Source: an uncultured Hyphomicrobiales bacterium
GTDB lineage: Bacteria > Pseudomonadota > Alphaproteobacteria > Rhizobiales > Beijerinckiaceae
Direction of reading: 5' to 3'
Length of the DNA stretch: 43,385 nucleotides
NCBI GenBank assembly: GCA_903902915.1
Contig: CAIUWR010000067.1
Coordinates: forward strand, 1-43,385
Shown here: in pieces, positions 14,583-39,745 of the stretch
Position numbering within the stretch: position 1 is the first letter of the stretch
Layout: every line of letters begins with the position of its first letter
Translations under genes and position numbers: made by a program
Notes under the pieces: model-generated
Databases searched by the model: none
Told to the model about the DNA's origin: nothing
Seen by the model: only the letters and a program-made list of their open reading frames with translations

Positions 14583-14681
14583 GCGGGAGGTTGGCGGTGG
14601 ACGTTCCACTCGCCAACCGGGTCAGGTCCGGAAGGAAGCAGCCCTAACGAGACCGGGCGGGTCTCTGTCCAGCCTCCCACC
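14583..14681 (+). ncRNA. ffs: Signal recognition particle RNA (4.5S type)
   Basis: The near-invariant SRP domain IV core GTCAGGTCCGGAAGGAAGCA is at 14621-14640, followed by GCCCTAACGAG. The ends pair as expected for a single long hairpin: GGGAGGTTGG (14585-14594) with CCAGCCTCCC (14669-14678), one G-U pair. An inner stem pairs GTGGAC/GTTCCAC-type sequences. The RNA binds Ffh for co-translational membrane targeting. It sits directly before dnaX, an arrangement common in alphaproteobacteria. End positions are estimated to within a few bases. A weak promoter candidate (TTGCGA, 14550-14555) precedes it. Confidence 0.95.
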
Positions 14682-18361: not shown

Positions 18362-18455
18362 GATGACTCCTTCGTTTGCATGAACCGCGTCGTGCGCCGC
18401 TTCGTATTCAGCACGCCATATGTGATACGCGCGCCCCCGGATGAATGGATCAATG

Positions 18456-20009
18456 ATGAAAAGCCTGCGTCTGGTGTTCGGCGATCAACTCACGCGCACC
18501 TTGAGCGCGCTTGACGGGCTCGATCCGGTGAATGACGTCGTCTTCATGGTCGAGGTCGCGCAAGAGACGACCTATGCGCCGCACCACAAGCAGAAGATCG
18601 TCCTGATCCTCGCCGCCATGCGCCATTTCGCGGCGGAGTTGATGGGCGAAGGCGTGCGCGTGCATTATGTGCGGCTCGACGATCCCGCCAATACCGGCTC
18701 CTTCACCGGCGAGCTCGCGCGCGCCCTCGGCTTGCACAAGCCTGACGCCATCATCGCCACCGAGCCTGGCGAGTGGCGGGTCGCGCAGATGATGGGCGAC
18801 TGGTCGGCGCAATTTGGCGTTCCATTGGACGTGCGCGAGGATGACCGCTTCTTTTGCTCGCGCGGGCGTTTCGCGCGCTGGGCCAATGAACGCAAATCTT
18901 ACCGGATGGAGTTTTTCTATCGCGAGATGCGCCGCGAAACCGGGCTGTTGATGCAGGGCGACAAGCCCGAAGGCGGCGAATGGAATTTCGACAAGGAGAA
19001 CCGCAAGGCTCTGCCCGCACGCCACGCGCCGCCCAAGCGCCAGCGTTTCGAACCGGATCAGACGACGCGCGAGGTCATGGCGCTTGTGGCGCGCCGGTTC
19101 GCCGATAACTTCGGCGATCTTGAACCTTTTGGCTGGGCGGTGACGCGCGCGGACGCATTGGAGGCGCTGGACCATTTCATTGCCGATTGCCTGCCGCTCT
19201 ATGGCGATTATCAGGATGCGATGAAGACCGGCGAGCCTTTCGTCTATCACTCCATCCTCTCGCCCTATCTCAACTGCGGATTGCTGACCGCGCGCGAAAT
19301 CTGCATCGCCGCCGAGCGCGCCTTTCGCGCGGGCCATGCGCCGTTGAATGCGGTGGAGGGTTTCGTGCGCCAGATCCTGGGCTGGCGCGAATATGTGCGC
19401 GGCATCTATTGGCGCCATATGCCAGCCTATGAGGACACCAATGCGCTTGAGGCGCATCGGCCGCTGCCCGCCTTTTTCTGGACCGGCGACACGCGAATGA
19501 ATTGCATTGCGCAGGCGGTGGGCGACACGCGCAAACATGCCTATGCGCATCATATCCAGCGGCTGATGATCACCGGCAATTTCGCGCTGCTGGCGGGCAT
19601 TGAACCGCGCGCGGTCGAAGAGTGGTATCTGGCCGTCTATATCGACGCTTTCGACTGGGTGGAGCTGCCCAACACCCACGGCATGGTGCTCTTCGCCGAT
19701 GGCGGCATGTTGGCGTCCAAACCTTATGCGGCGTCAGGCGCCTATATCGACCGCATGTCCGATTATTGCGGCGCCTGCGCCTATGATGTGAAGCAGAAGA
19801 GCGGCCCGAAGGCCTGCCCCTTCAACCCGCTGTACTGGCATTTTCTCATCGAGAACCGCGCGCGGCTCGCCGCCAATCCGCGCATGGCGATGCCCTATCG
19901 CACGCTGGATAAAATGAGCGACGAGCGGCGCGCCGAAATCACGCGCGAAGCGCTGGCTTTTCTCGATGGCGTCGATCAGCCCAAACAGCAGTTCGCGCTC
20001 GACCTTTAA
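18456..20009 (+). CDS. Iron-sulfur cryptochrome/photolyase (FeS-BCP, PhrB/CryB type)
   Basis: This 517-residue flavoprotein has the length and motifs of the bacterial (6-4) photolyase/cryptochrome group that carries a [4Fe-4S] cluster. The N-terminal Rossmann-like domain starts [16 protein letters not shown]. The FAD domain contains [37 protein letters not shown] and [23 protein letters not shown]. Four cysteines in the expected arrangement ([27 protein letters not shown]) would hold the cluster. The likely role is light-driven repair of (6-4) photoproducts, or light signalling. The start is ATG 18456, with in-frame ATGs at 18453 and 18441. It is divergent from DUF2256 and convergent with the SDR gene, leaving only 3 bases between stops. 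Confidence 0.95.
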
Positions 20010-22809: not shown

Positions 22810-22839
22810 TTGCTTGTCGAAAGGCCAAGCAAGTATATT
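22810..22839 (+). promoter_or_regulatory. Promoter with overlapping operator-like dyad, upstream of the ThDP enzyme
   Basis: A sigma-70-like pair is TTGCTT (22810-22815), an 18-base spacer, and TATATT (22834-22839). The -35 lies inside an exact inverted repeat, TTGCTTG (22810-22816) and CAAGCAA (22826-22832), with 9 bases between arms. The dyad therefore covers the -35 and spacer, where a repressor would act. Its cognate regulator is not identifiable. The same region lies upstream of queC on the other strand. Confidence 0.5.
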
Positions 22840-22850
22840 ATCCGTGTCAA

Positions 22851-22867
22851 GGATTCGAGAAGAATCC
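22851..22867 (+). repeat. Hairpin/dyad near the predicted 5' end of the ThDP enzyme mRNA
   Basis: GGATTC and GAATCC flank GAGAA, giving a perfect 6-base-pair stem with a 5-base loop. It starts about 5 bases after the predicted transcription start. It could stabilise the mRNA end or be a second protein-binding dyad. Confidence 0.4.
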
Positions 22868-22933
22868 GTCATGGAAACAAGACGCGGCCTTCGCAACGCC
22901 GACGGCGAAGCAGCAACCAAGGGAGCAGGCTCG

Positions 22934-24904
22934 ATGACAGACCTGAACGGCAAGGATGGCTATGATCGCCGCAAATTCCTGACTGGCGCAGCTGTCGCTG
23001 GCGTCACCCCGGCTTTGGCGCAGATGGGCGCGCCAGCCGCAGCGCAGGCGCAGGCCGCGAAGCCGCCCCACGCGCCTTCCGCCCTGCCGCCGAATGCGAA
23101 GACCATCGCCGCCGAGATCCACCCGCCCGAGGAGCTGTCGCGCGTTGGCGGCAAGCCCGGGTCGGACTTCATGATCGACGTCATCAAGACGCTCGACATC
23201 AAATATTCGCCCTCCAACTGCGCCTCGAGCTTCCGCGCCCTGCACGAATCGCTGATCGACTATGGTGAGAACAAGTCTCCCGAATATATCAGCTGCATGC
23301 ATGAGGAATCCGGCGTCGCCATGGCGCATGGCTATTTCAAGGCGAGCGGCAAACCGCTGCTGACCATGGTGCATGGCACGGTCGGCCTGCAGCACGCCAC
23401 GATGGGCATCTACAACGCCTTCTGCGATCGGGTGCCGCTGATCGTCATCGGCGGCAACGACATGGACGCCGCCCATCGCCCGCCGGGCGTGCCGACGTTC
23501 CATGCCGCGCAAGACATCAACGCCATCGTGCGCGACTATACCAAGTGGGACGATACGCCGGTCTCGTTGCAGCATTTCGCGCAATCCATGGTGCGGGCCT
23601 ATACGATCGCCATGACGCCGCCCTATGGACCGGTGGCGATTTCGCTGGATGCGGGCCTGCAACAGGAGCCGATCAAGGAACATCTCGAGAAGCTCTATAT
23701 TCCGCGCTATGTGCCCACCTCGCCGCCGCAGGGCGACAGCAACGCGGTGAAGGAAGCGGCGCGCCTTCTCGTCGCCGCCGACAATCCCGTCATTGTGGCG
23801 GATCGCGTGGCGCGCACGCCCAATGGCGTGACATTGCTGATCGAACTTGCGGAGTTGCTGCAAGCCTCGGTGGTCGATCAGGGCAGCCGCATGAATTTCC
23901 CCAACACCCACTATCTCAACCGTCCCGCAGGCGCGATCCCCAACGCCGACGTCGTGCTCGGCATGGAGCTGTCGGATTTCTGGGGCACGGTGAACACCTA
24001 TACGGACAATGGCGAGGATGGAGTCGGCGTCAACGGCACGCGCCTGAAGCCGACGACGAAGCTGATCAGCATCACCTCCATCGATCTGCTGACCAAATCG
24101 AACTATCAGGATTTCCAGCGCTTCCAGACCGTAGACGTGCATATGGGGGCGGATGCGGAAACGACTTTGCCATCCCTCATCGAGGCGGTGAAATCCGCCA
24201 TGACGAAGGACCGCGCCGCAGCCATCGAGGCGCGCGTGGAAAAGGCGAAGAAGGCCCATGCGGACATCCGCGCGCGGGAGCTTCATGCTGCGACCGTGGG
24301 ATGGGATTCGAGCCCGATCAGCACGGCGCGCCTGTGCATGGAGATCTATGGCCAGATCAAGGATCTCGACTGGTCCCTCGTCGCTTCCGAAGGCAATGTG
24401 AGCAATTGGCCGGCCCGTCTATGGCCCATTGACAAGCACCACCAGTGGCTGGGCCGCTCCGGCGGCTATGGGGTTGGCTATGGCGCGCCCGCCAGCATCG
24501 GCGCCGCGCTCGCCAATCGTGATCTTGGCCGCTTCTCGGTGTCGATCCAGTCCGATGGCGACCTCATGTTCGCGCCGGGCGTGTTGTGGACGGCGGCGCG
24601 GCACAAGATTCCGCTGCTTGCGGTCATGCACAACAATCGCGCCTGGCATCAGGAGGTGATGCATGTGCAGCGCCTCGCGAACTTCCGCAATCGCGTTCCC
24701 AATTACGGCGCCGACCGTGGCCCCATCGGCACCACCATCGAGAATCCGGACATCGAGTACCACAAGCTCGCCGAATCCATGGGCTGGTGGGCGAGGGGGC
24801 CCGTCAAGGATCCCGCGCAGCTTGGCGCCGCCATCAAGGAGGCGGTCGCCGTCGTGCGGTCGGGACAACCGGCCCTTCTGAATGTTTGGACGCAGCCGCG
24901 CTGA
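22934..24904 (+). CDS. Tat-exported thiamine-diphosphate-dependent enzyme
   Basis: This 656-residue protein has the three-domain fold of acetolactate synthase/pyruvate oxidase-type enzymes. It starts with a twin-arginine signal: DRRKFLTGAAVAG at about residues 11-23, then an Ala-rich stretch to about residue 42. The pyrimidine-domain catalytic Glu is in MHEESGVAMAHGY (about E124). The metal/diphosphate motif is SDGD...HNN (about D541 to N567), with Ser replacing the first Gly of GDG. The start at 22934 has AGGGAG about 9 bases upstream; ATG 22871, same frame, is an alternative with a weaker site. It is transcribed with the following cytochrome c and has its own promoter and terminator. Substrate unknown; a periplasmic oxidative decarboxylation or lyase reaction is inferred. 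Confidence 0.9.
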   Translation: MTDLNGKDGYDRRKFLTGAAVAGVTPALAQMGAPAAAQAQAAKPPHAPSALPPNAKTIAAEIHPPEELSRVGGKPGSDFMIDVIKTLDIKYSPSNCASSFRALHESLIDYGENKSPEYISCMHEESGVAMAHGYFKASGKPLLTMVHGTVGLQHATMGIYNAFCDRVPLIVIGGNDMDAAHRPPGVPTFHAAQDINAIVRDYTKWDDTPVSLQHFAQSMVRAYTIAMTPPYGPVAISLDAGLQQEPIKEHLEKLYIPRYVPTSPPQGDSNAVKEAARLLVAADNPVIVADRVARTPNGVTLLIELAELLQASVVDQGSRMNFPNTHYLNRPAGAIPNADVVLGMELSDFWGTVNTYTDNGEDGVGVNGTRLKPTTKLISITSIDLLTKSNYQDFQRFQTVDVHMGADAETTLPSLIEAVKSAMTKDRAAAIEARVEKAKKAHADIRARELHAATVGWDSSPISTARLCMEIYGQIKDLDWSLVASEGNVSNWPARLWPIDKHHQWLGRSGGYGVGYGAPASIGAALANRDLGRFSVSIQSDGDLMFAPGVLWTAARHKIPLLAVMHNNRAWHQEVMHVQRLANFRNRVPNYGADRGPIGTTIENPDIEYHKLAESMGWWARGPVKDPAQLGAAIKEAVAVVRSGQPALLNVWTQPR

Positions 24905-24917
24905 GGGAGATGATCTG

Positions 24918-25259
24918 ATGCGTTATATGGGAATGATCGCCGCAGTCGCCGCAAGCCTGCTTGTGTCCATCACCGGCGCTTGCGCCGCTTCGGCGGAAAA
25001 AGGCCGGGTCGCCTTCCGGGAAAAAGGCTGCTGGCAATGCCATGGCTATGAAGGACAGGGCGGCGCCAATGGGCTGACGCTTGCACGCACGCAGTTGCCG
25101 CTCGAAGCCGTCGACGTTTTTGTGCGCAACACCGATGGCCCCATGCCGCCTTTCTCGAAGAAAATGCTCTCCGACGAGGATCTGGCGGATATCTACGCCT
25201 TCCTTTCCGCGCAGCCGGTTCCAGCTGATCCAAAGACGATCCCGCTCCTCGCGCACTGA
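24918..25259 (+). CDS. Secreted monoheme cytochrome c
   Basis: The 113-residue precursor has a Sec signal peptide (MRYMGMIAAVAASLLVSITGAC, cleavage probably near residue 23). One heme site follows, GCWQCHGYEGQGG (C38, C41, H42), with a likely axial Met in GPMPPFSKKMLS, and the LSDEDLADIYAFL helix ends the class I fold. It is soluble in the periplasm after processing. It starts 13 bases after the ThDP enzyme stop, with GGGAG upstream, and a terminator follows its stop. The pair therefore forms a two-gene unit, and the cytochrome is the obvious electron acceptor for the exported enzyme (inference). Confidence 0.92.
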   Translation: MRYMGMIAAVAASLLVSITGACAASAEKGRVAFREKGCWQCHGYEGQGGANGLTLARTQLPLEAVDVFVRNTDGPMPPFSKKMLSDEDLADIYAFLSAQPVPADPKTIPLLAH

Positions 25260-25279
25260 AGGATCGGGCGCTGACAAGT

Positions 25280-25309
25280 CGCCCCTGGCTTCGCGGCCGG
25301 GGGCGTTTT
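25280..25309 (+). terminator. Rho-independent terminator after the ThDP enzyme/cytochrome c pair
   Basis: A 10-base-pair stem (CGCCCCTGGC at 25280-25289 with GCCGGGGGCG at 25296-25305, one G-U pair) has a 6-base loop and is followed by TTTT. It lies 20 bases after the cytochrome stop and before the dioxygenase gene. Confidence 0.75.
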
Positions 25310-25425: not shown

Positions 25426-26478
25426 ATGCATGCAGTGATCGACAGCCCGGCCGATTGGCGCGGCCCGGGTGTAGCCAAACGCACGGACTGGATCCACGAG
25501 TTCACCCGCGAGGAGATCGCCGAAATCGACGCGGCGACGCGTCATGCGCTGGCCAGCGGCAAGACGCTCGAGACGCTGACGCGGGACGATTTTCCCCTGC
25601 CGCTCGTGTCGCAACGCATCGCTCATGCGCGCAGGTTCCTAGAGGACGGACTGGGAATCTATCAGTTTCGCGGCATCAATGTGGACGGGTACGACAAGGC
25701 CACGCTGCGCCTCATGTATTGGGGCGTGGGCAAGCACATGGGCACGGCGGTTTCGCAGAGCAAGGATGGCGATCTGCTGGGCGACGTGCGCGATGTGGGC
25801 GTGGATGTGAACAGTCCGCAGGGGCGCGGCTACAAATCGAATCAGCGCCTCACCTTCCACACCGACACCTGCGATGTCGTCGGCCTGATGGTCCTGCGCG
25901 TGGCGAAGGTCGGCGGCCTCAGTCTGCTGGCGAGTTCGCACGCCATTCATAACCATCTGGCGCGCACGCGGCCTGATCTGCTCGAAGTCCTGCACCAGCC
26001 CTTCACATGGAGCTGGCAGACGCAGGAGCCCCCGGGCGGCACGCCCCATTATCAGCAGCCGCTTTTCTCCATGAAGGACGGCAAGCTCTCCTGCCGTTAT
26101 GTGCGCGTGCATATCGCCTCGGGCCAACGCTTCCCCGATGCGCCGCGTCTGACGCCCATCCAGATCGAGGCGCTGGACGCTTTCGACAAGCTGGCCTGGA
26201 GCGAGGACTTCCACTTCTCCTTCATGTTCAAGCCGGGCGATCTGCAATTCGTCAACAACCATGTGGCGCTGCATTCCCGCACGGCTTTCGAAGATCACGA
26301 AGAGGCTGACCGCAAGCGCCATCTGCTGCGCATGTGGCTCTCCGTGCCCAACAGCCGACCGCTGTCCGACGCGCTCTCGACCATCTATCAGGACCGCAGC
26401 GGCGGCGCGGTGCGCGGCGGTTTCCCGACGCGGACGGGCAAGTATATCTACGAGTCAACCGGCGCTCTTTCGGATTGA
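25426..26478 (+). CDS. TauD/TfdA-family Fe(II)/2-oxoglutarate-dependent dioxygenase
   Basis: This 350-residue protein has the facial-triad residues of the family: H145 and D147 in TFHTDTCD, and H283 in VALHSRTAF. A 2-oxoglutarate-binding Arg lies in RHLLRMWL (about R302). An N-terminal region of about 70 residues precedes the core. Relatives hydroxylate taurine, 2,4-D, betaines or other small acids; this one's substrate is not evident. GAGGAG sits 8 bases before the ATG at 25426. It begins a plus-strand unit with the dehydrogenase and MmgE/PrpD genes downstream, after the terminator of the cytochrome gene. Confidence 0.9.
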   Translation: MHAVIDSPADWRGPGVAKRTDWIHEFTREEIAEIDAATRHALASGKTLETLTRDDFPLPLVSQRIAHARRFLEDGLGIYQFRGINVDGYDKATLRLMYWGVGKHMGTAVSQSKDGDLLGDVRDVGVDVNSPQGRGYKSNQRLTFHTDTCDVVGLMVLRVAKVGGLSLLASSHAIHNHLARTRPDLLEVLHQPFTWSWQTQEPPGGTPHYQQPLFSMKDGKLSCRYVRVHIASGQRFPDAPRLTPIQIEALDAFDKLAWSEDFHFSFMFKPGDLQFVNNHVALHSRTAFEDHEEADRKRHLLRMWLSVPNSRPLSDALSTIYQDRSGGAVRGGFPTRTGKYIYESTGALSD

Positions 26479-26486
26479 GCGCGCCC

Positions 26487-27431
26487 ATGTTGCGCATCGC
26501 CATCCTCGACGATTACCAGTCCGTCGCCCGCAGCATGGCCGATTGGTCGCGCCTTGGGCCGGATGTGGAAATCGTCAGTTTCAATCGCCACCTCAGCGAG
26601 GCCGAAGCGGCTGAAGAACTCGCCGCTTTCGATGTGCTCTGCATCATGCGCGAACGCATGGCGCTGCCACGCAGCATGATTGAAGCGTTGCCGCGCCTGA
26701 AGCTGATCGCCGTCACCGGCTCCCATACGCAGGTGATCGATGTGGCGGCCGCGCAGGCGCGGGGCGTTCCGGTGACGCTCACCGCGCCGCGCGCCTCCAA
26801 CTCGGCGGCGGAACTCACCTGGGCCATGGTGCTGGCGCTGGCGCGCAAGATCACGCTTGAAGACCGCAACATGCGCGAGGGCCGCTGGCAGACGAGCGTC
26901 GGTTTTCGGCTGGAAGGGCGCACGCTGGGCCTCATGGGCCTTGGCACGCTGGGCGCGCGGGTGGCGCGCTATGGGCAGGCCTTCGACATGAAGGTGATCG
27001 CCTGGAGCGCCAATCTCGATCCGCAGCGTGCGCGGGATCTGGGCGTCGAGCCCGTCACGAAAGATGAGCTGCTGCGTCGCTCCGATGTGGTGAGCATCCA
27101 CCTGAAGCTGGGGCCGCGAAGTCGTGGCCTGATCGGCGCGCCTGAGCTGGCCGCCATGAAACGCAGCGCGGTTCTGGTCAACACGTCGCGTTCGGCCATC
27201 ATTGATCAGGAGGCGCTGGCGCAGGCCTTGCGCGATGGCGTCATTGCGGGCGCTGCGCTTGACGTCTTCGAGCCCGAGCCCTTACCCGCCAACCACACTG
27301 TTCGGAGCCTGCCCAACACTGTGCTGACGCCCCACATCGGCTTTGTGACAGAAGAGTCCTATCGCGAATTTTTCGCAGGCGTCGTCGACTCCATCGTCGC
27401 CTGGCGACAGTCCCATGGAGGCTCGGCATGA
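26487..27431 (+). CDS. D-2-hydroxyacid dehydrogenase (NAD-dependent)
   Basis: This 314-residue member of the D-isomer-specific 2-hydroxyacid dehydrogenase family would interconvert a 2-hydroxy acid and a 2-oxo acid. The Rossmann motif is GLMGLGTLGARVA (about residues 148-160). Catalytic residues are Arg in NTSRSAII (R235), Glu in LDVFEPEPL (E264) and His in LTPHIGF (H283). The start at 26487 (MLRIAILDDYQSV) lies 8 bases after the dioxygenase stop, and its stop overlaps the next start by four bases. The gene could feed a 2-oxo acid to a downstream or periplasmic step, but this is speculative. Confidence 0.9.
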   Translation: MLRIAILDDYQSVARSMADWSRLGPDVEIVSFNRHLSEAEAAEELAAFDVLCIMRERMALPRSMIEALPRLKLIAVTGSHTQVIDVAAAQARGVPVTLTAPRASNSAAELTWAMVLALARKITLEDRNMREGRWQTSVGFRLEGRTLGLMGLGTLGARVARYGQAFDMKVIAWSANLDPQRARDLGVEPVTKDELLRRSDVVSIHLKLGPRSRGLIGAPELAAMKRSAVLVNTSRSAIIDQEALAQALRDGVIAGAALDVFEPEPLPANHTVRSLPNTVLTPHIGFVTEESYREFFAGVVDSIVAWRQSHGGSA

Positions 27432-28786
27432 GCGGATTGACGCGCCAGCTCGGGGCCTTTGTCGCTTCATTGCGATATGAGGCGATCCCCGCCGACCTGT
27501 TCAGCCAGGTGCGGAACGGCTTCACCGATTATGCCGCCGTGACGCTGCTCGGGCGCCATGATGAGGTGACGCATGCCTTGCGCGCGGTCGCGGCGCCGTC
27601 GCAAAGCACGGGCGAGGCGCGCATCTGCTTCAGCGCGGCGCGCACCAGGGGTCCGGACGCCGCCTTGATCAGCGGCGCAGCATCCCATGCGCAGGACTAT
27701 GATGACGTTGGCCTTGTCGGCGTCCAGCCGACCCATCCCTCCGCCGCCATCGCGCCCGCGATCTTCGCCGAGGCTGAAACGCTTGGCCGCGATGGCCGCG
27801 CCATGCTCGCCGCTTATGTGGCGGCGTTCGAAGTCTGGGGCGATCTGGCTGCGCGCGAGAGCGATCCGCCACATGTGAAGGGCTGGCATCCCACCGGCAC
27901 ATTCGGCGCCATCGCCGCCGCCGCCGCCTGCGCGCATCTGCGTGGCCTTGATGAAGAGCGCGCGGCCCATGCGCTGGGGATCGCCGCCTCCATGGCGGCG
28001 GGCTTCATCGCCAACTTCGGCTCCATGACAAAGCCCTTCCACGCGGGGCGCGCCGCCCAAAGCGGCGTATTGGCCGCGCGGCTTGCGCAAGCGGGCATGA
28101 CGGCTTCGCGCGATGCGCTGGAAAGTCCGGTCGGCTTCCTCGCCGCCATTTCGCCCAAAGGCGCGGTGGACCGGACAAGCGCGCCGCGCTGTGGCGAACG
28201 CTGGTTTTTGGCCAGCCATGGTCTGGGCTTCAAGTTGTTTCCCATGTGCTACGGCGCTCACCGCGCGCTTGATGGTCTGTTCACCCTGTTGAGCCATCAT
28301 CCGGTTGAAGCTGATGAGGTGGAGGCGATCGACGTGCATGCGACGCGGCTGCAATTCGCCAATCTCGTCCATGACAATCCGCAAAACGGGCTCGACGCCA
28401 AGTTCAGCATGGAATTCGCCATGGCCGCGCCGATCATCGCCGGGCGGGTGACCGAGGCGGAATTCACCAGCGCCTTCGTGCAGCGCGCGGATGTACGGGC
28501 CTTGATGAACCGCGTGAGCCGCGTGTTTCTGCCGCCGCCCGAAACTGGCGCAGCGCCACGCGACAAGATCACGCTGCGCTTGCGCGATGGGCGCGTGTTC
28601 GAGCAAATGCTGCGCGCGCCCATGGGACATGCGGACCGGCCGCCGACGACCCAAGCGCTCTGGACCAAATTCGCCGATTGCGTGGCCGATGCGCTGGCCC
28701 CCGCCGATGCGCGCCGCATGTTTGATCAATTGCAAAATCTTGATCGTCTGGCGTCGCCGGACGATTTGCCGGTGGCCGCCGTTTGA
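27428..28786 (+). CDS. MmgE/PrpD family protein (first copy)
   Basis: This 452-residue protein belongs to the MmgE/PrpD family, which includes 2-methylcitrate dehydratase and cis-aconitate decarboxylase. Recognisable blocks are FTDYAAVTLLGRHDE, SGAASHAQDYDDVG, HPTGTFGAIAAAAACAHLRGL, MTKPFHAGRAAQSGVLAARLAQ and KLFPMCYGAHRALDGL. The start overlaps the dehydrogenase stop (ATGA), with GGAGG 6 bases upstream. Sequence alone does not give the substrate; a dehydratase or decarboxylase acting on a small polycarboxylate is likely from the family. It is not a close twin of the second copy at 30024-31328, which is shorter. Confidence 0.88.
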   Translation: MSGLTRQLGAFVASLRYEAIPADLFSQVRNGFTDYAAVTLLGRHDEVTHALRAVAAPSQSTGEARICFSAARTRGPDAALISGAASHAQDYDDVGLVGVQPTHPSAAIAPAIFAEAETLGRDGRAMLAAYVAAFEVWGDLAARESDPPHVKGWHPTGTFGAIAAAAACAHLRGLDEERAAHALGIAASMAAGFIANFGSMTKPFHAGRAAQSGVLAARLAQAGMTASRDALESPVGFLAAISPKGAVDRTSAPRCGERWFLASHGLGFKLFPMCYGAHRALDGLFTLLSHHPVEADEVEAIDVHATRLQFANLVHDNPQNGLDAKFSMEFAMAAPIIAGRVTEAEFTSAFVQRADVRALMNRVSRVFLPPPETGAAPRDKITLRLRDGRVFEQMLRAPMGHADRPPTTQALWTKFADCVADALAPADARRMFDQLQNLDRLASPDDLPVAAV

Positions 28787-28995
28787 ACGCCCGATGACGC
28801 CGAACGAGGGGGCTTCGCTTGCGACGGAGGCGCGCGGCGCTGTGGGGCTCGCGCCTCGCCGCCATGCCAAAGGCGGAGAGCGAATATCGTCGTCTTGGCC
28901 CAGCGAAATGACCGTCGCGGCGCCTTTCTGAGCGCGACGCTTTCAACTATTGTCATGCCCAATCAACGGGGCCTTCCCCGGGCAGGAGACGACCC

Positions 28996-30027
28996 ATGCA
29001 TATCATCGACTCGCATTTTCACTGGTGGCCCCGGTCGGTCTTCGAGACCCTGTGCAAACGCATGGACGTCCCCTACGCCCGGCCCAACGACAAGGGCTGC
29101 TATGCCTGCGTGCTGGAGGAAGGCGCCGACTATGTGTTGAACAGCTGGCCCGACTGGTTCGATCTCGACGAGCAGTTCGAACATATGGACAGGCTGGGCC
29201 ATCGCGTGGACGCGGTGGGCTCCATCGGTCCCTTCTCCGTCTTCTTCTCGGCCCTGCCGAAGGACGAGGGCCGCGACCTCGCCATTCAGTGGAACGAAGA
29301 AATGGCCTCTGCGCAGCGCCGCTATCCCGGCAGATTCTGGGGCAGCGCGGCGATTCCGTTTCAGGACGAAAAGATCGCCATGGATGTGCTGGAGGACGCC
29401 ATCTCGCGCCTCGGCCTCATGGGCGTGAATCTCCCCGGTTCCATCGGCGCCGATCCGCGCATCGACGCAGAGCGCATGCAGCCCTTCTACGCGCGCTGCG
29501 CGGAACTCGGCCTGCCTGTATTCATGCATCCCACCGACGCCGTCTTCAACCATATGCTCGATGGCTATAACGGCGCGCTGCATCTGTCGCTGGGCCGCGT
29601 GATCGAAGTCAGCGTCGCGGCCATGCGCCTTGTGCTGTCGGGCACGATGGAGCGTCACCCCGACCTCAAGCTGATCATGTCGCATACCGGCGGGGCGCTG
29701 CCCTATCAGTCCGGCCGCATGGACAAGAACACCAAGAACGCCAAGCTGCCGCGCCCCACCAGCGACTATCTCAAGCGCATGTATACGGACACGGTGAGCC
29801 CTCATTCGGCGGGCATCAAATTCGCGATTGAATATTACGGCATCGACCGCGTGATGTATGGCACCGATTATCCCTGCTGGGATCCCGCCGCATGCCTCAA
29901 GCTGATCGAGGAGATCGACCTGTCGGACGCCGACAAGCGGAAGCTCTTCTATGACAATGCGCGGCGCATCCTCAACCTGCGCGATCCCGCGCCCGCATCG
30001 GCGCCCGAAACGGCTTTTGCAAAATGA
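28996..30027 (+). CDS. Amidohydrolase-family (ACMSD-like) metal-dependent hydrolase/decarboxylase
   Basis: This 343-residue TIM-barrel protein is of the amidohydrolase_2 type. Metal ligands are visible: HFH near the N-terminus (H7, H9), His in VFMHPTD (about H178), His in IMSHTGG (about H230) and Asp in YGTDYPCW (about D291). The group contains decarboxylases (aminocarboxymuconate-semialdehyde, resorcylate) and lactone hydrolases, so either chemistry is possible. AGGAG lies 7 bases before the ATG at 28996. A 209-base gap with no gene separates it from the preceding MmgE/PrpD gene, so it may have its own promoter. Its stop overlaps the second MmgE/PrpD start. Confidence 0.9.
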   Translation: MHIIDSHFHWWPRSVFETLCKRMDVPYARPNDKGCYACVLEEGADYVLNSWPDWFDLDEQFEHMDRLGHRVDAVGSIGPFSVFFSALPKDEGRDLAIQWNEEMASAQRRYPGRFWGSAAIPFQDEKIAMDVLEDAISRLGLMGVNLPGSIGADPRIDAERMQPFYARCAELGLPVFMHPTDAVFNHMLDGYNGALHLSLGRVIEVSVAAMRLVLSGTMERHPDLKLIMSHTGGALPYQSGRMDKNTKNAKLPRPTSDYLKRMYTDTVSPHSAGIKFAIEYYGIDRVMYGTDYPCWDPAACLKLIEEIDLSDADKRKLFYDNARRILNLRDPAPASAPETAFAK

Positions 30028-31328
30028 CCATTTTAGAAGCTTACGCGCGGGCGCTGGCGCAACCAGCGCCCGCCAATGACGAGCGGCTGTCGCTGCATCT
30101 GATCGACACGGTCGGCGCCTGGCTTGCGGGGGCCGCGAGCGCGGAGGGTCGCGAGATCATCGCGTCCATGCGGGGCGGGGCTCTGCTGGGCGCGGGTCCG
30201 CTCGACCAGCTCACCCTTGCGGTGGCGACCACGCGGCTGACCGAAATCGACGACATCCATCGCGCCTCCTGCGTCACTTGCGGCGCGGTCGTCATTCCCG
30301 CCAGCTTCATCATGGCGCGGGCCTTGGGCGCCAGCGCCGTTCAATTCGCGAGCGCGCTGCGCCATGGTTATGAGACCATGATGCGTCTGGGCATGGCGGT
30401 GAACGGGCCGGGCGTTCTGGCGCGCGGCGTCTGGCCGACATATCTGGCTGCGCCCATGGGCGCTGCGGCCGCCACAAGCGCGCTGCTCGGCCTCACGCCT
30501 GCGCAAACGGCGCAGGCCATGGCGATCGCCCTGGCGCAGACCAGCGGCGCGCCGGGTGGGCATGGGCCGGGGCGCTCTTCGCGCTGGCTGTTGTCGGGGC
30601 TCGCTGCGCGCAGCGGCGTCGCCTCCGCGCTGATGGCGTCGCAAGGCTTCACCGGCGATCTGACCTTGCTCGACGCCGACTGGTTCCAGCGCACCCATGG
30701 GCTGGCGTTCGACCCCGCGCCATTCACAGCGCCGCAGCCCATTTTGCACCAGACCAGCATGAAGCCCTGGTGCGCCGCCAAGCAGACTGTTTCGGCGACG
30801 GACGCATTTCGCGTTTATCTGGCGGAGGGCGGCAGCGCCGCGCGCGTGGCCTCCATCCGCGTCCATGTGCCAAGCGCCTATCGCGTGATGATTTCCAGCA
30901 AGCCGCCGGGGCGGTTGGGGCGCATCATCAATCTGGGCTGGCAATTGGGGCTCGTGGCCCATCATCCGCAAGCCATGCTCGATCTCGACCGCGAGCCCAC
31001 GCCGCAGGACGCGCTGGTGGAGGCTTTCGCGCAGAAGGTGGAGATCGTGGCGGACGCCAGTCTCGACGCTTTCTATCCCGCGCAATGGCCAGCGCGATTG
31101 GAGATCACGCTGGACGATGGTTCGGTGATCGAGCGCATGGCGAGCGAGGCTCTGGGCGATCCCGGCGCGCAGCTTGACGCCGCCGCCGTCGCCGCAAAGT
31201 TCGCGCGCGTCACCGGCCATATTGGTGCGCACAAGGCGCAATCCTTGCTGACGCTGCTGCATGGACCGGTCGAGAGCCTCGACCTTGCAGCGCTTGAGGC
31301 GGCGCTGAACGCCGCCCTGCAAGGCTGA
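30024..31328 (+). CDS. MmgE/PrpD family protein (second copy)
   Basis: This 434-residue protein is a divergent second member of the family. Blocks include LHLIDTVGAWLAGAAS, TEIDDIHRASCVTCGAVVIPA, ALRHGYETMMRLGMAV, GVWPTYLAAPMGAAAATSALLGL, QTSMKPWCAAKQTVSATDAF and VHVPSAYRVMISSKPPG. The KPWCAAKQ segment stands where the first copy has KLFPMCYGAHRA, so the substrate pockets probably differ. The start overlaps the amidohydrolase stop, and the ribosome site is weak, suggesting coupling. Its TGA at 31326-31328 abuts the stop of the minus-strand M24 gene with no spacer. Confidence 0.87.
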   Translation: MTILEAYARALAQPAPANDERLSLHLIDTVGAWLAGAASAEGREIIASMRGGALLGAGPLDQLTLAVATTRLTEIDDIHRASCVTCGAVVIPASFIMARALGASAVQFASALRHGYETMMRLGMAVNGPGVLARGVWPTYLAAPMGAAAATSALLGLTPAQTAQAMAIALAQTSGAPGGHGPGRSSRWLLSGLAARSGVASALMASQGFTGDLTLLDADWFQRTHGLAFDPAPFTAPQPILHQTSMKPWCAAKQTVSATDAFRVYLAEGGSAARVASIRVHVPSAYRVMISSKPPGRLGRIINLGWQLGLVAHHPQAMLDLDREPTPQDALVEAFAQKVEIVADASLDAFYPAQWPARLEITLDDGSVIERMASEALGDPGAQLDAAAVAAKFARVTGHIGAHKAQSLLTLLHGPVESLDLAALEAALNAALQG

Positions 31329-32369
31329 TTAAAGACCGATTATGCGGGCGCCGATCCAGCGGCGGCCGCCGATCTCCATCTCCACATCGAGCACGAAAGG
31401 CGCCGACGCCGTGAAGCCTTGCGCGGAGCCCGCGAGGTTGGCCACAGGCGCGAGCGGATAAGATCCGCGCGGCTGTTCGGCGCCCCAGTTCACGACCGTG
31501 CCGAAGGGGCCGAATGCGCGCGCGACCGCTGCGCCCAAAGCCTCGCCCGGCTGCGGCGCGAAAGCCATCAAAGCCGCATGGGCCTGATTGAACTGATCCT
31601 GCACGGGCGCAGCCTTGGCGAAGCTGCGCACATGCCGCGTCCACGCGCCTTTGTAGGCGAGCGATACGCGAGCGGCGTAAGTTTGCCCCAGCGCGCCCAT
31701 GGACTCCGTGCGCACGAAGGCGCGGCTGGCGCCAAGATCGCAAGCGACCAGTGTGAAACATTCTTCCGCGCCGCCAAGCCGCGCAACGGATTCCGCTGGC
31801 GCAATGAAGGCGCGCGCTTCGATCTGCGCCACATCGACAGCCGCGCATGCGGCCTGCGCGAGCGCATCAGCCTTCGTCAGCAGGAGATGCTCCACCGCGT
31901 CGCAGGCGTTGCGCGCGCGGGCGAAAGCCTGCGTCACGTCGACCAGCTCCACGCCGGGCGCCGCTTGCAAAATCGCCTGCGCATGGCCTGCGGGAAAATC
32001 GTCGAGTTCGAGAATGCCGATGCGCTTGGCGCCATCCACCGCGATGCGCTCGCCGATGAGCGCTGCGGGGCGCGGCGTGGTCGTGACCTCGCCAGCTGGC
32101 ATGACTGAGATGATCCATTCGGCGACGCGCTTGGACAAAGCGGTGGCGAAAATCATCTCGCCATCGGCGGGCGCATAGAGCAGCCCCTCGTTCCAATAGG
32201 GCGTGAAGCCCGTGAGCCACCACACGGCGCCGCCGCGCGCGATATTCGTATAGGCGACGAAGACGTCGACGCCCTCGCGCGCCAATTCAGCGCGCAAGCG
32301 GGCGCGCCGGTCGGCGAGAGCGGAAGCGGGAACCTCAGCAGGATCCCAGGCCATCAAACCACGACGCAT
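31329..32369 (-). CDS. M24-family-like protein lacking metal ligands (creatinase/prolidase fold)
   Basis: This 346-residue protein is a distant relative of the neighbouring M24 gene product. Its N-terminal domain (RRARLRAELAREGVDVFVAYT, VWWLTGFTPYWNEGLLYAP) fits the creatinase/prolidase N-domain. The C-terminal half aligns only loosely with the M24 pita-bread fold, and none of the five metal-binding Asp/His/Glu residues can be placed. It may be metal-independent or a non-catalytic partner. The start at 32369 (MRRGLMAWDP) has GAGG 6 bases upstream and follows the other M24 stop by 7 bases. It is the last gene of the operon. Confidence 0.75.
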   Translation of the reverse strand: MRRGLMAWDPAEVPASALADRRARLRAELAREGVDVFVAYTNIARGGAVWWLTGFTPYWNEGLLYAPADGEMIFATALSKRVAEWIISVMPAGEVTTTPRPAALIGERIAVDGAKRIGILELDDFPAGHAQAILQAAPGVELVDVTQAFARARNACDAVEHLLLTKADALAQAACAAVDVAQIEARAFIAPAESVARLGGAEECFTLVACDLGASRAFVRTESMGALGQTYAARVSLAYKGAWTRHVRSFAKAAPVQDQFNQAHAALMAFAPQPGEALGAAVARAFGPFGTVVNWGAEQPRGSYPLAPVANLAGSAQGFTASAPFVLDVEMEIGGRRWIGARIIGL

Positions 32370-32376
32370 GGCGTCC

Positions 32377-33483
32377 TCACTGCAAGGGAACGGAGAAAAG
32401 TTCGCGCGGCGTGCCGCAGAGCAATTCATGCCCGCCGTCGCGCACCACAAGCGAATCGCCCAGCACCAGATAACCCACGGCGGGGTGATAGGTGTTGGGG
32501 TGGACGATGAGCGTCATGCCCGCTTCCAGCGTGATCTGCACATCTTCCAGAATGGCGGGCTTCTGATCGGGGAAGAGCCCCATGCCATGGCCGCGCACGC
32601 GCGTATATTCGGAGGTCACATAGTCGCCGAGGCCATATTTGCGGAAGACGTCGTTCTCGGCTTTCGCCACATGCGCCGCCGTCACGCCCGCTTTCACCGA
32701 GGCGATCCCCGCCTCCATGGCTTCGAGATAAACGGCGAAAGCCTGATGCTGCGCTTCGCTGGGCTCGCCCACGATCAGCGTGCGGCAGATCTGCGCGTAA
32801 TAGCCGTCATAGCATGGCGTCAGCTCGGTCGTGACCATGTCGCCAGCTTTCAAAATCTTGCCGCCGGGAGGCGCCATGCCGCGCACCTCCTGCCCGCCGA
32901 CGCCGACGATCATGAAATTCTCCGGCACGCCTTTGGCGCGGAAGAAGGACTCCATCTCCGCGACCAGTTCGTAATCCTTGCGGCCGGGGCGGGCGGCGTT
33001 GCGGAAGATGGCGTAGCCTTCGTCAGCCAAGGCGGCGGCCTTGCGCACGGCGTCGATCTCGACTTCCATCTTGTTCATCAACAAGCGCTCGACGATCTTC
33101 GCGCCATCGCTGACGCGCAGATCCTTGTCGCCATGCAGCAGCCCATAGGGCAGCAGATGGTAGGGCGCGGCGGCGATGTTGTGATTGCCCGCGCGCGCGA
33201 GTTGCTTCTTCGCCTCCGCGACAAGCGCGGGGGCGAAGATGGTTTCGCATGTGCTGTAGGCGCGCGCGCGCTCGCATTCGGCGGGATCGTCGAGGATCAG
33301 GGTGATCGACCCGTCCTCGCGTACAAGCGCGACGCCCTGGCCCTCCTGGATGCCGAAATCTGTCGCATAGCGCAGATGATCCGCATGCCAGTTGTTGCCG
33401 AAGAGCACGAGAATTTCGACCTCCTCGCGCATCATCGCGTCTTTAAGAGCGCGCCTTCGCGCCGCCAGCGCATCCTTGCTCAT
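32377..33483 (-). CDS. M24-family (creatinase/Xaa-Pro peptidase-like) protein with altered active site
   Basis: This 368-residue protein has the two-domain creatinase/prolidase architecture. Conserved landmarks are ILVLFGNNWHADHLRYATDF, FMIVGVGGQEVRG, CYDGYYAQICRTLIVG, RVRGHGMGLFPDQKP and AVGYLVLGDSLVV. In metallopeptidases the five ligands are D, D, H, E, E; here the equivalent positions read approximately E220, Q231, H299, H328 and D343. It is therefore probably not a dinuclear-metal peptidase. Creatinase, which cleaves creatine to sarcosine and urea without metal, has the same fold, so a C-N hydrolase role is plausible beside HyuAB. GAGG lies 5 bases before the ATG. Confidence 0.85.
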   Translation of the reverse strand: MSKDALAARRRALKDAMMREEVEILVLFGNNWHADHLRYATDFGIQEGQGVALVREDGSITLILDDPAECERARAYSTCETIFAPALVAEAKKQLARAGNHNIAAAPYHLLPYGLLHGDKDLRVSDGAKIVERLLMNKMEVEIDAVRKAAALADEGYAIFRNAARPGRKDYELVAEMESFFRAKGVPENFMIVGVGGQEVRGMAPPGGKILKAGDMVTTELTPCYDGYYAQICRTLIVGEPSEAQHQAFAVYLEAMEAGIASVKAGVTAAHVAKAENDVFRKYGLGDYVTSEYTRVRGHGMGLFPDQKPAILEDVQITLEAGMTLIVHPNTYHPAVGYLVLGDSLVVRDGGHELLCGTPRELFSVPLQ

Positions 33484-33518
33484 TCAACCCTCACCTTCGC
33501 CAAACGAGGATAGACCGC

Positions 33519-35204
33519 TCACGCGCTCGCGCGCCAGCCGTAATAGTCGCAGGCCTTGTCAGCCGACACGAAGCCTTGCGCGACATCATTGCTCAGCTCG
33601 TTGCGATCGCGCTTGTGCGGATCGCCATAGCCGCCGCCGCCCGCCGTGTAGAAGGTGACGGAATCGCCCTTCAGCAGCGGGATTTCCGTTCCCTTGGACA
33701 CGTTGCGGTCAGCCGCGCCATTGGAGTGGATGATGGCGACGTTATGCGCGCCTTCGCCGCCGCCATTGAGGCCCCACGGGGGCGCCTGCGTGCGCTCGCA
33801 ATTGATGGTGACCTTGCAGGGCACCAGCGTTTGATAGGTGATGCGCACGCCAAGCCCGCCGCGATGCTGACCCGCGCCGCCGGAATCCTCGCGCAGCGCA
33901 TGTTCCTGCACGAGCACGGGATAGCGAATCTCCTGCAATTCGACGGGCGTGTTGCGCACGTCGCCCTGACAGACGGAGACGCTCGCGTCCTCGCCGTCTT
34001 CGGTGGGCCGTCCGCCCCAGCCGCCGCCGAAAATGTTCAGCAGCAGGAAGCGGCTGCCATCTTCGCGGAAGCCGTAGAACGAGCAACCGCCCATGTCGCC
34101 CTTGTGCGCGGCGGGGATGACATGGGGCAGCGCAGGCGCCAAAGCCTTCAGGATCGTGTCGATGGTGGTGGGCAGCGCGATGCTCCACAGGCCAATGGCG
34201 GCGCCCGCTTTCGCGCTGACGATGGTGCCCTCGGGGATCACCACATCCAGCGCGCGGAAGCAGCCATCATGCACGTCAAGCTCCGGCGAAGTGATCGCCT
34301 TGAAGGCGACGCGCGCGGCGGCGACGCCGCCCGACTTGCCGGAATTGAGCGGCGAATGAGTCTGCGGATTCATCTCGGAAAAATCGACCGTCATGGTCGA
34401 GCCCTTGATGGTGACGGTGGTCTTGATCTTGATCGGTTGGTCGAGATTGCGGCCATCGTTGTCCAGCGCGCTTTCGGCCACATAGACGCCGTCGGGAATC
34501 TTCTCGATGACGCTGCGCACCTGCATGTCCGCCTGATCCCAGATACGGTCGATGCAAAGCTCGACCGTTTCGCGGCTGTAGCGCTGCACCAACTCGCCAT
34601 AGCGGCGCGCGCCGAGCTGGCAGGAGGCGATCTGCGCGCGCATGTCGCCAAGGCAGGCGTCGGGGAACCGCACGTTGTCGTGGATGATCTGCCACAGGGT
34701 TTCGTTGCGCACGCCAGCTTCGAAGATCTTCAGCGAACGCATCTGCAAACCTTCGGCGAAGATTTCAGTGGTCAGCGAAGAGCCGAAGCCGATGCGCATG
34801 CCGCCGATGTCCACCCAATGGGCGCGGTTGGCCGCGAAGGCGACGAGTTCGCCATCGACGAAACAGGGCGCGTAAAGCACCACGTTGTTCAGATGCTGCC
34901 CGCAGGTCTCGCCATGATTCATGATGAGGATGTCGCCGGGCTTGAAGCCGTCGAGGCCCCAGCGCTTGATGCCGTCTTCCACCGCCACGCCCAGATCGGC
35001 GAGGAAGATCGGCAGGCCGCCGCGATTTTGCGAAATCATGCGGCCCTGCGTGTCGATGAGGCCGCAACAGAAGTCGCGGACTTCATAGATCATCATGTTG
35101 TAGGCCGCCTTGCACAGCGCATTGGCCATTTCGTCGGCGAAAGCGACGATGGAGTTGCGCACGACTTCGACGGTGATGGGATGAGCGCCCGTTGCCTTGG
35201 TCAT
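33519..35204 (-). CDS. Hydantoinase B/oxoprolinase-type subunit
   Basis: This 561-residue HyuB-family subunit pairs with HyuA for ATP-dependent ring opening (N-methylhydantoinase, 5-oxoprolinase) or carboxylation (acetone carboxylase) reactions. Landmarks are the N-terminal VEVVRNSIVAFADEMANALC, DILIMNHGETCGQHLNNVVLYAP, DFSEMNPQTHSPLNSGKSGG and the C-terminal TCERTQAPPWGLNGGG-like region and FYTAGGGGYGDP. The ATG at 35204 follows the HyuA stop after 2 bases, with AAGGA upstream; a TTG at 35210 is possible. The HyuAB pair in one operon with an ABC importer and M24 proteins suggests uptake and hydrolysis of a cyclic amide or ureide. Confidence 0.92.
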   Translation of the reverse strand: MTKATGAHPITVEVVRNSIVAFADEMANALCKAAYNMMIYEVRDFCCGLIDTQGRMISQNRGGLPIFLADLGVAVEDGIKRWGLDGFKPGDILIMNHGETCGQHLNNVVLYAPCFVDGELVAFAANRAHWVDIGGMRIGFGSSLTTEIFAEGLQMRSLKIFEAGVRNETLWQIIHDNVRFPDACLGDMRAQIASCQLGARRYGELVQRYSRETVELCIDRIWDQADMQVRSVIEKIPDGVYVAESALDNDGRNLDQPIKIKTTVTIKGSTMTVDFSEMNPQTHSPLNSGKSGGVAAARVAFKAITSPELDVHDGCFRALDVVIPEGTIVSAKAGAAIGLWSIALPTTIDTILKALAPALPHVIPAAHKGDMGGCSFYGFREDGSRFLLLNIFGGGWGGRPTEDGEDASVSVCQGDVRNTPVELQEIRYPVLVQEHALREDSGGAGQHRGGLGVRITYQTLVPCKVTINCERTQAPPWGLNGGGEGAHNVAIIHSNGAADRNVSKGTEIPLLKGDSVTFYTAGGGGYGDPHKRDRNELSNDVAQGFVSADKACDYYGWRASA

Positions 35205-35206
35205 GA

Positions 35207-37264
35207 TCAATCCTTCCGGGCGATGTCGACGATGAGGTGGCCCGCTTGCGTCACGGTCACGACATCGCCGGGGTGAATGAGAATGGTGGAGTTCGGCTCT
35301 TCGATGACGGCGGGACCGGTGATGGTCATGCCGGCCGGCATCGAGGGGCGCCAGAGCACGCGGGCGCGCTGCGGAGCCTTCGGGTCGTCATAGACCACGT
35401 CGCGAGCGCCTTCGGGCATGTTGTCCGTGGGCGTCCAGGGCTCGGTGAGCCACTGTTCGGCCAGCGTGTCGGCGCGCTGCGCGGTGAGCACGAGACGCAG
35501 ATTGACGATTTCAAGCTGTTCCTCGACGGCGGCCTGACCGTAGCGCTGGTCATGCTCTTCGTGGAAACGGCCACGCGCCACGCTGGTGTCGCCTGACAAA
35601 AGGTCGGCATTTTCGATGCGGATCGACAGCGCATGTTCCTGACCGACGTAACGCAGATCCGCATAGAAACGGAAGTCCGCCACATCGCCCGAAATACCGT
35701 CGCGCTCCATCTGCGCCTTGCCGTCATGGGCGAGTTCGTTGAACACGCGCTCGACGATGCTCTTGTCGAGGCCGCCGAGGCGCCCCACCAGCGTGCGCAC
35801 GAAGTCCTGACGCCACGAGGCCATCAGCATGCCCAGCGCCGAGAAGGTGCCGGGAAGCTTGGGGATCACGACGCGCGGAATGAAGATTTCGCGCGCGATG
35901 GCGATGGCGTGCAGGGGGCCTGCGCCGCCAAAGGCGATCATCGAGGTCTCGCGCGGATCGACGCCCTTGTTGACGGAGACGGCGCGCACGGAAAGCGACA
36001 TGTTGTTGTCCGAAATGGTGGCGACGCCGAGCGCCGCTTCCATGGTGGACAGGCCCAACGGCTTGCCGACCTTTTCATCGAGCGCACGGCCCGCCGCCGC
36101 AATGTCGAGCTGCATGGCGCCGTTGAGGAAGCGTCCGCCGTTGATGCGGCCCAGCATGAGATCGGCGTCGGTGACGACGGGATCCATGGAGCCCTTGCCG
36201 TAGCAAGCGGGGCCAGGATCGGCGCCCGCGCTCTTGGGGCCCACATGCAGACCGCCCGCCGAATCAACCCACGCGATAGAGCCGCCGCCATTGCCGACTT
36301 CGACGATGTCCACGACAGGCAATTGCATGGGCTGGCCCGACGCGTGATCGCCGATGACATAGCCATCTTCAATCGCGGGCTGGCCGCGCGTGATCAGCGA
36401 CGACTTGGCGGTGGTGCCGCCCATGTCGAAACCGATGCACTTCTCAAGGCCCAGATGCGCCGCAAGACGGCCCGCGCCGATCATGCCCGCCACGGGGCCG
36501 GATTCCATCATGGACACCGGCTGCAAACGCGCCTGATCGAGCGACATGACGCCGCCGTTTGAGCGCATGATATGCACCTGACCGCCGAAGTTCTCGCCGC
36601 GCAGATAGGTTTCCAGCGTGTTCAGATAATTGCGCACGCGCGGGCCGACGAAGGCGTTGAGCGCTGTCGTCGATGTCCGCTCATATTCGCGGAACTCGCG
36701 CAGGATCTCGTGGCTCAGGGTGACGAAGAGCGTGGGGTTCACGCGGCGCAGAATGTCGCCGACGATCTTTTCATGTTCGGGATTGGCGTAGGAGTGCAGG
36801 AAGCACACCGCCACCGCCTCGACGCCCGCTTCTTTCAGCTCAAGCGCGAGACGCTCGACCTCCGCGACGTCAACTGGCGTCATCACATCGCCATTGGCGA
36901 CGACGCGCTCGTTCACTTCATAGGTGTGGCGACGCTCCACCAGCGGCTTGGGGCGATGGAACCAGAGGTTGAAGGCCTCGATGCGGTTGCCGCGGCCAAT
37001 CGCGTAGACATCGCGGAAGCCCTTGGTCGTCACCAGCGCGGTGAGCGCGCCCTTGCGCTCCAGCACCGTATTGATGGCGATGGTCGAGCCATGCAGCACT
37101 TCGGTCAGGCCCGGCAGATGGCAAGCGGCGAGCGACAGGGATGTGGCGACGCCCAGCGTCGGATCGGCGGGCGTCGTCGATGTTTTGGATGTGACGATGC
37201 GGCCGTCCACACAGCCGACGAGATCTGTAAAAGTCCCGCCGATATCGATACCTACGATGTTCAT
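35207..37264 (-). CDS. Hydantoinase A/oxoprolinase-type subunit (ATP-binding)
   Basis: This 685-residue HyuA-family subunit carries the actin/hexokinase-like ATP site. It begins VGIDIGGTFTDLVG, with VLHGSTIAINTVLERKGA, IMRSNGGVMSLDQAR, CIGFDMGGTTAKSSLI, SIAWVDSAGGLHVGPKSAGADPGPACYG and AFGGAGPLHA. These motifs are shared by N-methylhydantoinase A, 5-oxoprolinase and acetone carboxylase beta, and they do not discriminate the substrate. Length is normal. The ATG overlaps the stop of the upstream permease (ATGA), so transport and hydrolysis genes are translationally coupled, strong evidence that the transported compound is the HyuAB substrate. Confidence 0.93.
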   Translation of the reverse strand: MNIVGIDIGGTFTDLVGCVDGRIVTSKTSTTPADPTLGVATSLSLAACHLPGLTEVLHGSTIAINTVLERKGALTALVTTKGFRDVYAIGRGNRIEAFNLWFHRPKPLVERRHTYEVNERVVANGDVMTPVDVAEVERLALELKEAGVEAVAVCFLHSYANPEHEKIVGDILRRVNPTLFVTLSHEILREFREYERTSTTALNAFVGPRVRNYLNTLETYLRGENFGGQVHIMRSNGGVMSLDQARLQPVSMMESGPVAGMIGAGRLAAHLGLEKCIGFDMGGTTAKSSLITRGQPAIEDGYVIGDHASGQPMQLPVVDIVEVGNGGGSIAWVDSAGGLHVGPKSAGADPGPACYGKGSMDPVVTDADLMLGRINGGRFLNGAMQLDIAAAGRALDEKVGKPLGLSTMEAALGVATISDNNMSLSVRAVSVNKGVDPRETSMIAFGGAGPLHAIAIAREIFIPRVVIPKLPGTFSALGMLMASWRQDFVRTLVGRLGGLDKSIVERVFNELAHDGKAQMERDGISGDVADFRFYADLRYVGQEHALSIRIENADLLSGDTSVARGRFHEEHDQRYGQAAVEEQLEIVNLRLVLTAQRADTLAEQWLTEPWTPTDNMPEGARDVVYDDPKAPQRARVLWRPSMPAGMTITGPAVIEEPNSTILIHPGDVVTVTQAGHLIVDIARKD

Positions 37265-38103: not shown

Positions 38104-38107
38104 GTGA

Positions 38108-38860: not shown

Positions 38861-38862
38861 GT

Positions 38863-39690: not shown

Positions 39691-39745
39691 CGGTCAAAAG
39701 CCCCCGGGTTCGCAGCGCCCCAAGGGGCGCTCGATCCGATCAAGT

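Follow-up and report, generated by a model that had tools for sequence, protein, structure and literature searches.

The DNA analysed here (the window) is a stretch of 43,385 nucleotides from an uncultured Hyphomicrobiales bacterium of the Beijerinckiaceae (contig CAIUWR010000067.1), and it carries on the forward strand a gene for an enzyme of the thiamine diphosphate (ThDP) class with a predicted twin-arginine translocation (Tat) signal, followed after 13 bases by the gene of a small cytochrome c. An earlier note on this DNA had described the pair as a 656-residue ThDP enzyme with a twin-arginine signal and a secreted one-haem cytochrome c, and this description was confirmed by the coordinates and by Pfam. 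The two genes and their relevant parts are:

22934..24904 (+): ThDP enzyme gene, 656 amino acids (aa), ATG at 22934, stop codon ending at 24904; predicted to be Tat-exported
22934..23056 (+): Tat signal region, MTDLNGKDGYDRRKFLTGAAVAGVTPALA...AQAQA; the cleavage site was placed by eye
23303..23305 (+): E124, presumed catalytic glutamate, aligned with E47 of benzoylformate decarboxylase; invariant
24554..24637 (+): ThDP/Mg motif D541-G-D...N567-N568; D and NN match PoxB and Gcl in the alignment
24647..24670 (+): HQEVMHVQ segment (residues 572-579), characteristic of the exported clade
24918..25259 (+): cytochrome c gene, 113 aa, ATG at 24918; leader of Sec type as judged by eye, class I (CBB3-like) cytochrome family
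25029..25043 (+): haem site CWQCH, the sole CXXCH of the cytochrome, read from the sequence
25143..25145 (+): M76 in GPMPPF, presumed axial haem ligand; M-P invariant in 78 partner cytochromes
25239..25256 (+): C-terminal tail IPLLAH of the cytochrome, a possible docking tail; 72 of 78 partners have [PG][LMIV]L close to the C-terminus

A GGGAG stretch lies a few bases ahead of the start codon of both genes. The enzyme matched the Pfam domains TPP_enzyme_N and TPP_enzyme_C above cut-off and the central ThDP domain just below it (26.5 bits, 30.4 required), and together with the catalytic glutamate and the Mg-binding D...N motif this identifies it as a ThDP enzyme. Among the 25 NCBIfam models shown it stayed under every cut-off, including those of the best-scoring family NF006203 (PRK08327; 223 bits vs 456 required), of benzoylformate decarboxylase (NF005485; 147 vs 493) and of the acetolactate synthase large subunit (TIGR00118; 125 vs 538). 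The cytochrome scored above cut-off with Cytochrom_C and Cytochrome_CBB3 (PF13442, 42.7 bits vs 27) and has the curated score, the single CXXCH and the distal methionine (presumably the ligand) of a class I cytochrome c. Its best match among structural chains was 6h5l_B (E 4e-6), and among the 23 chains listed there was also a weak match to the p-cresol methylhydroxylase subunit 1dii_C (E 9e-4).

The N-terminus of the enzyme shows what is expected of a Tat substrate, namely a twin-arginine motif with F-L (DRRKFL, residues 11-16) and a hydrophobic stretch. In an alignment of 102 relatives, R12, R13 and F15 were conserved at 0.99 and L16 at 0.93 within a leader of which most other columns were conserved at 0.2-0.6, so that the motif is more than a chance occurrence; RRx[FLIVM] was present in 101 of the 102 rows. 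Among the best 120 of 7994 matches of a first database search, 119 carried the motif within their first 45 residues, the exception (P0103) having an extended N-terminus, and a wider second search found it in 116 of 119 further listed proteins. The Pfam family TAT_signal (PF10518) was precomputed on several homologues from this second search, not on the window protein. At the level of genome loci (the best 80 of 544 coding stretches from a species-representative collection), the signal was found in 79, one of which (L048) carries DRRKFL, and the remaining locus begins inside the gene (L055). RRPFI matches inside several signal-less loci were discarded as signals because they lie far from the N-terminus. 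As a rule, ThDP enzymes of this class reside in the cytoplasm, and the enzyme might by that rule stay there, its twin-arginine stretch being an annotation or chance feature; given the conservation of RRxFL (93-99%) in a variable leader and the absence of the signal, like that of the cytochrome, from the signal-less relatives read, we regard this as extremely improbable.

The 80 loci belong to Betaproteobacteria (33), Alphaproteobacteria (32), other Pseudomonadota (2), Acidobacteriota (12) and Myxococcota (1), names that may be off since many of these genomes are metagenome-assembled. A homologous one-haem cytochrome follows the enzyme gene on the same strand in 78 of them, and in the other two the contig stops 2 and 144 bases past the enzyme gene. 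The distance from stop codon to stop codon was 259-475 bases (median 366); the presence of CXXCH in all 78 partners is by construction, as partners were chosen as CXXCH carriers. In the converse search, with the cytochrome as query against 51 genomes of the genus, 33 genomes yielded 52 matches. An enzyme frame lay upstream in all 30 matches with a returned stretch, seven further matches adjoin enzyme matches as judged by coordinates, and of the other 15, which were fetched, 13 had the enzyme beside them and two did not. Thus 50 of the 52 cytochrome matches adjoin the enzyme, and the two that do not are the weakest (E 3.5e-10 and 9.5e-9) and both lie in long frames. In 386 genomes sampled across the class, the cytochrome was found at E<=1e-12 only in the two (G000 and G173) in which the signal-bearing enzyme was found; an extra enzyme copy could have been missed there, as at most three candidates per genome were scored and six weaker matches came without a locus. 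The distribution is patchy: the window's own genome was the only positive among 397 genomes drawn from the phylum (E<=1e-120), two of 150 genomes were positive in the family of another carrier's genome (that of L017), and no phage record matched. No fusion of enzyme and cytochrome was found among the 120 listed homologues, none of which has a CXXCH; P0006 (767 aa) was a ThDP protein only. In one locus three enzyme-cytochrome pairs stand in tandem (L077:5259-12828), perhaps differing in substrate. A lack of the signal and of the cytochrome neighbour in most homologues, which the earlier note had named as a refuting outcome, was looked for and not found, and the pair is a conserved module across several phyla.

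The enzyme has signal-less relatives at 32-39% identity, most of which align only from query residue 34-77 onward. None of 28 such loci from across the class (L112-L139, including L119) had a signal ahead of the core domain or, within the fetched stretch, a CXXCH frame on the same strand. In 25 genomes of the genus, all 21 matches at or above 48% identity had the cytochrome and 20 had the signal, the other one lying on a contig that begins inside the gene (G014:C333); all nine signal-less matches (L107-L109, five more, and L131, which the 28 already include) had neither. From 21 plasmid matches 10 were read: the two with a signal (Caballeronia, 49%; Novosphingobium, 43%) both had the cytochrome, and the eight without a signal had none. 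In total, no cytochrome was found at 44 different signal-less loci (28 + 8 + 8). The partner cytochrome on the Caballeronia plasmid has 206 aa and two CXXCH sites (L081:7827-8447), and upstream on this plasmid are genes with annotations for aromatic-ring dioxygenase subunits and for 4-hydroxy-2-oxovalerate aldolase; on the Novosphingobium plasmid two successive CXXCH frames follow the enzyme gene (L082:5689-6401). In the window's own genome, PF02775 was found at 16 places and the enzyme frame was recognised via the window protein in 12 stretches, among which only the window gene combined a signal with a same-strand CXXCH gene; the L183 frame had no signal, and L191, L193 and L194 stood outside the count. 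This genome also carries signal-less relatives of the enzyme, for example L131 (G000:C23:6351-8063, 37% identity). A maximum-likelihood tree was built from 31 signal-bearing (L146 included), 39 signal-less and two outside sequences, leaving out L061, which is identical to P0173. A single change separated signal-bearing from signal-less sequences in 100% of 200 bootstrap trees, gain or loss being undecided by the tree.

By sequence, the ThDP site is intact. E124 and H147 align with E47 and H70 of benzoylformate decarboxylase, and E124, D541, G542, N567 and N568 are invariant in the 102 rows. Next to this motif, H572, Q573, E574, M576 and Q579 are conserved in 99-100% of the 102 exported-clade rows vs 0-8% of 39 signal-less relatives, and the segment also departs from PoxB and Gcl. 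A protein whose catalysis has been lost or altered and which binds or senses a ligand in the periplasm, the cytochrome having a part in redox signalling, could account for this divergent segment, but the invariance of the catalytic glutamate and of the ThDP/Mg residues makes it very improbable. The nearest solved fold was that of benzoylformate decarboxylase (1bfd, 4q9d), by a small margin; an earlier structure derived from 15 close sequences (predicted local distance difference test score 52.8) was kept out of the fold search.

In the sequence alignment, the glycine loop for flavin adenine dinucleotide (FAD) is absent: D290 and R291 (98% each of the 102 rows) replace the G-S-G of PoxB. A membrane-binding tail of the PoxB type is likewise absent, as none of the 102 rows reaches past the end of the window protein, beyond which PoxB extends by 42 residues. 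The earlier label of an acetolactate synthase/pyruvate oxidase-type protein calls for refinement, given that the flavin loop of those enzymes is missing and that the nearest solved fold is, narrowly, benzoylformate decarboxylase. The enzyme might still keep a flavin in an altered pocket and pass electrons from ThDP through FAD to the cytochrome c, as a PoxB-like oxidase relocated to the periplasm; the near-complete swap of the loop for D and R, and the slightly better fit to benzoylformate decarboxylase, which binds no FAD, speak against this, and we consider it quite improbable. On the sequence evidence, the gene pair and its Tat signal are conserved, the ThDP site is intact, both the glycine loop for flavin and the tail known from PoxB have been lost, and the enzyme is probably flavin-free.

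The conserved adjacency and the export signals on both proteins (that of the cytochrome by eye) are those of a two-component periplasmic dehydrogenase-cytochrome c pair. We therefore favour, with some confidence, the interpretation that the pair is a two-component periplasmic oxidoreductase in which the ThDP dehydrogenase oxidises an intermediate derived from a 2-oxo acid or an aldehyde and reduces the cytochrome; export of the enzyme, electron transfer, the absence of FAD and the class of substrate are what we infer here. The earlier note had likewise proposed a periplasmic enzyme that reduces the cytochrome, and its interpretation is supported in part. The enzyme would fold, bind ThDP and Mg2+ and assemble in the cytoplasm before Tat export, and the cytochrome would be exported by Sec and receive its haem outside. 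In the periplasm, a 2-oxo acid that is decarboxylated, or else an aldehyde, would give rise to a ThDP-bound carbanion/enamine, and this low-potential intermediate would pass two electrons, singly, to its dedicated cytochrome c partner; hydrolysis of the acyl-ThDP would release the carboxylic acid, and the reduced cytochrome would deliver its electrons to the respiratory chain. A more specific proposal, to which we give somewhat less than an even chance, is that these widespread exported enzymes are flavin-free and pass electrons from the enamine via a ThDP radical directly to the haem c of a docked cytochrome. Flavin and iron-sulfur clusters would then be joined by a third route for electrons out of ThDP, and thiamine chemistry would take place outside the cytoplasm, for which we know of no example. 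In direct transfer, the partners would meet at the clade-specific HQExMxxQ segment, next to the ThDP motif, and at the conserved I-P-x-L in the tail of the cytochrome; the net charges of the partners (medians +1 and -1) show no clear complementarity.

Several observations weigh against the oxidoreductase interpretation. We know of no ThDP enzyme that passes electrons directly to haem, and the matrix correlation stems in part from common descent. Three of the 119 proteins from the second search start near the core domain with no visible signal, although these may be cut or late-starting, and the branch that separates signal-bearing from signal-less sequences had an ultrafast bootstrap of 78% and an SH-aLRT of 100 in the tree that includes both outgroup rows. 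Gene neighbourhoods vary widely and single out no substrate. The likeness of E124 and H147 to benzoylformate decarboxylase equally fits a plain non-oxidative decarboxylation, and one homologue (L146, G913:C12:8627-10453, 50% identity) has the signal and no adjacent cytochrome; its genome holds another complete pair elsewhere, the cytochrome of which L146 perhaps borrows. Upstream of L146, on the same strand, lies a frame that by eye resembles a major-facilitator transporter. The decarboxylase-like fold and aligned active-site residues, as well as L146, also favour an exported non-redox decarboxylase or lyase, the aldehyde product of which is oxidised by another periplasmic dehydrogenase served by the cytochrome. 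Against it, there is no conserved third gene, the next neighbour family by clustering occurring in 24 of 80 loci within ~4 kb, and at E<=1e-12 the 386 genomes showed the cytochrome together with this enzyme and nowhere else; we rate this explanation as unlikely.

The earlier note had also assigned the pair its own promoter, dyad and terminator. The corresponding features are:

22814..22841 (+): promoter-like site TTGTCG-16-TATTAT; its -10 part lies inside a block conserved upstream of L001-L003
22851..22867 (+): 6-bp dyad GGATTC-n5-GAATCC, a possible operator or 5' leader hairpin; RNA fold of 22820-22880, z -3.17
25280..25305 (+): intrinsic terminator-like hairpin of 11 pairs followed by TTTT, at the end of the two-gene unit

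By count, neither the promoter-like site (1 found vs 0.7 expected by chance) nor terminator-like hairpins (2 vs 2.4) exceeded chance. Conservation gives this part of the claim partial support: a GTATAT(T/C)ATC block is conserved upstream in the three relatives aligned (L001-L003), the dyad reads GGTTTC...GAAGCC in the same three, with letters changed and pairing kept, and the hairpin at 25280-25305 is conserved in both relatives aligned there (L001 and L003). Taken together, the upstream block, the compensated dyad and the conserved hairpin suggest that the pair is a unit of its own, as the earlier note had it.

The genes neighbouring the pair across loci, identified by Pfam on 20 of 86 cluster representatives, included TctC-type binding proteins, amidohydrolase-2, UbiD/UbiX, TauD and aromatic hydroxylases; what they share goes no further than the catabolism of organic acids or aromatics. 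In the window, the pair is followed on the same strand (25426-31328) by a TauD-type dioxygenase, a D-2-hydroxyacid dehydrogenase, two MmgE/PrpD proteins and an amidohydrolase-2; by clusters, the TauD gene is common to L001 and L003 only. On the reverse strand (31329-40714) lie two creatinase/M24-like proteins, hydantoinase A and B, and an ABC transporter with an NMT1/THI5-like binding protein. Elsewhere in the window, ARAGORN placed a tRNA-Lys(ctt) at 18505-18594 (-), overlapping a 522-aa frame (18441-20009), so that either the tRNA or the frame may be misplaced, and a bacterial small signal recognition particle (SRP) RNA was found at 14585-14681 (+; 56.3 bits vs a cut-off of 40).

Among known systems, PoxB of Escherichia coli shares the ThDP superfamily fold with the window enzyme, and its chemistry, the oxidative decarboxylation of a 2-oxo acid to a carboxylic acid with electrons passing to the respiratory chain, is the one proposed here. 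PoxB is cytoplasmic and FAD-dependent and has a membrane-binding C-terminal tail; the window enzyme, unlike PoxB, has a Tat signal and a cytochrome partner and lacks both glycine loop and tail. Benzoylformate decarboxylase is cytoplasmic and non-oxidative, and the window enzyme differs from it by its low NF005485 score. NF006203 comprises ThDP proteins of unstated function; the signal-less relatives lie near it, two of them (L083 and L107) being likewise under its cut-off (250 and 243 bits), and those read differ from the window pair in having neither Tat signal nor cytochrome neighbour. Quinoprotein alcohol dehydrogenases, p-cresol methylhydroxylase and the sulfite dehydrogenase SorAB are periplasmic pairs of a dehydrogenase and a cytochrome c, and D-malate:cytochrome c oxidoreductase (PMC12294151) is reportedly another dehydrogenase/cytochrome c pair. 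The window pair has in common with these pairs an exported catalytic subunit and a cytochrome c acceptor, but the cofactors of the first three are pyrroloquinoline quinone, FAD or molybdenum, whereas here it is ThDP. Searches of the open full-text literature, judged by titles and the openings of abstracts, turned up neither an exported ThDP enzyme nor a pairing of ThDP enzyme and cytochrome c (subscription papers and bioRxiv lay outside this scope); as far as can be seen, the parts are of known kinds and their combination is undescribed.

If the interpretation is true, the name acetolactate synthase large subunit carried by many database homologues (jgi names within the list of 120) would be wrong. 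A flavin-free route from ThDP to haem would be a new and simple electron path, useful in electrode-coupled biocatalysis. For the bacteria concerned, an exported family would mean that Tat moves folded, cofactor-loaded thiamine enzymes, and that carbon-carbon chemistry in the periplasm is tied to respiration.

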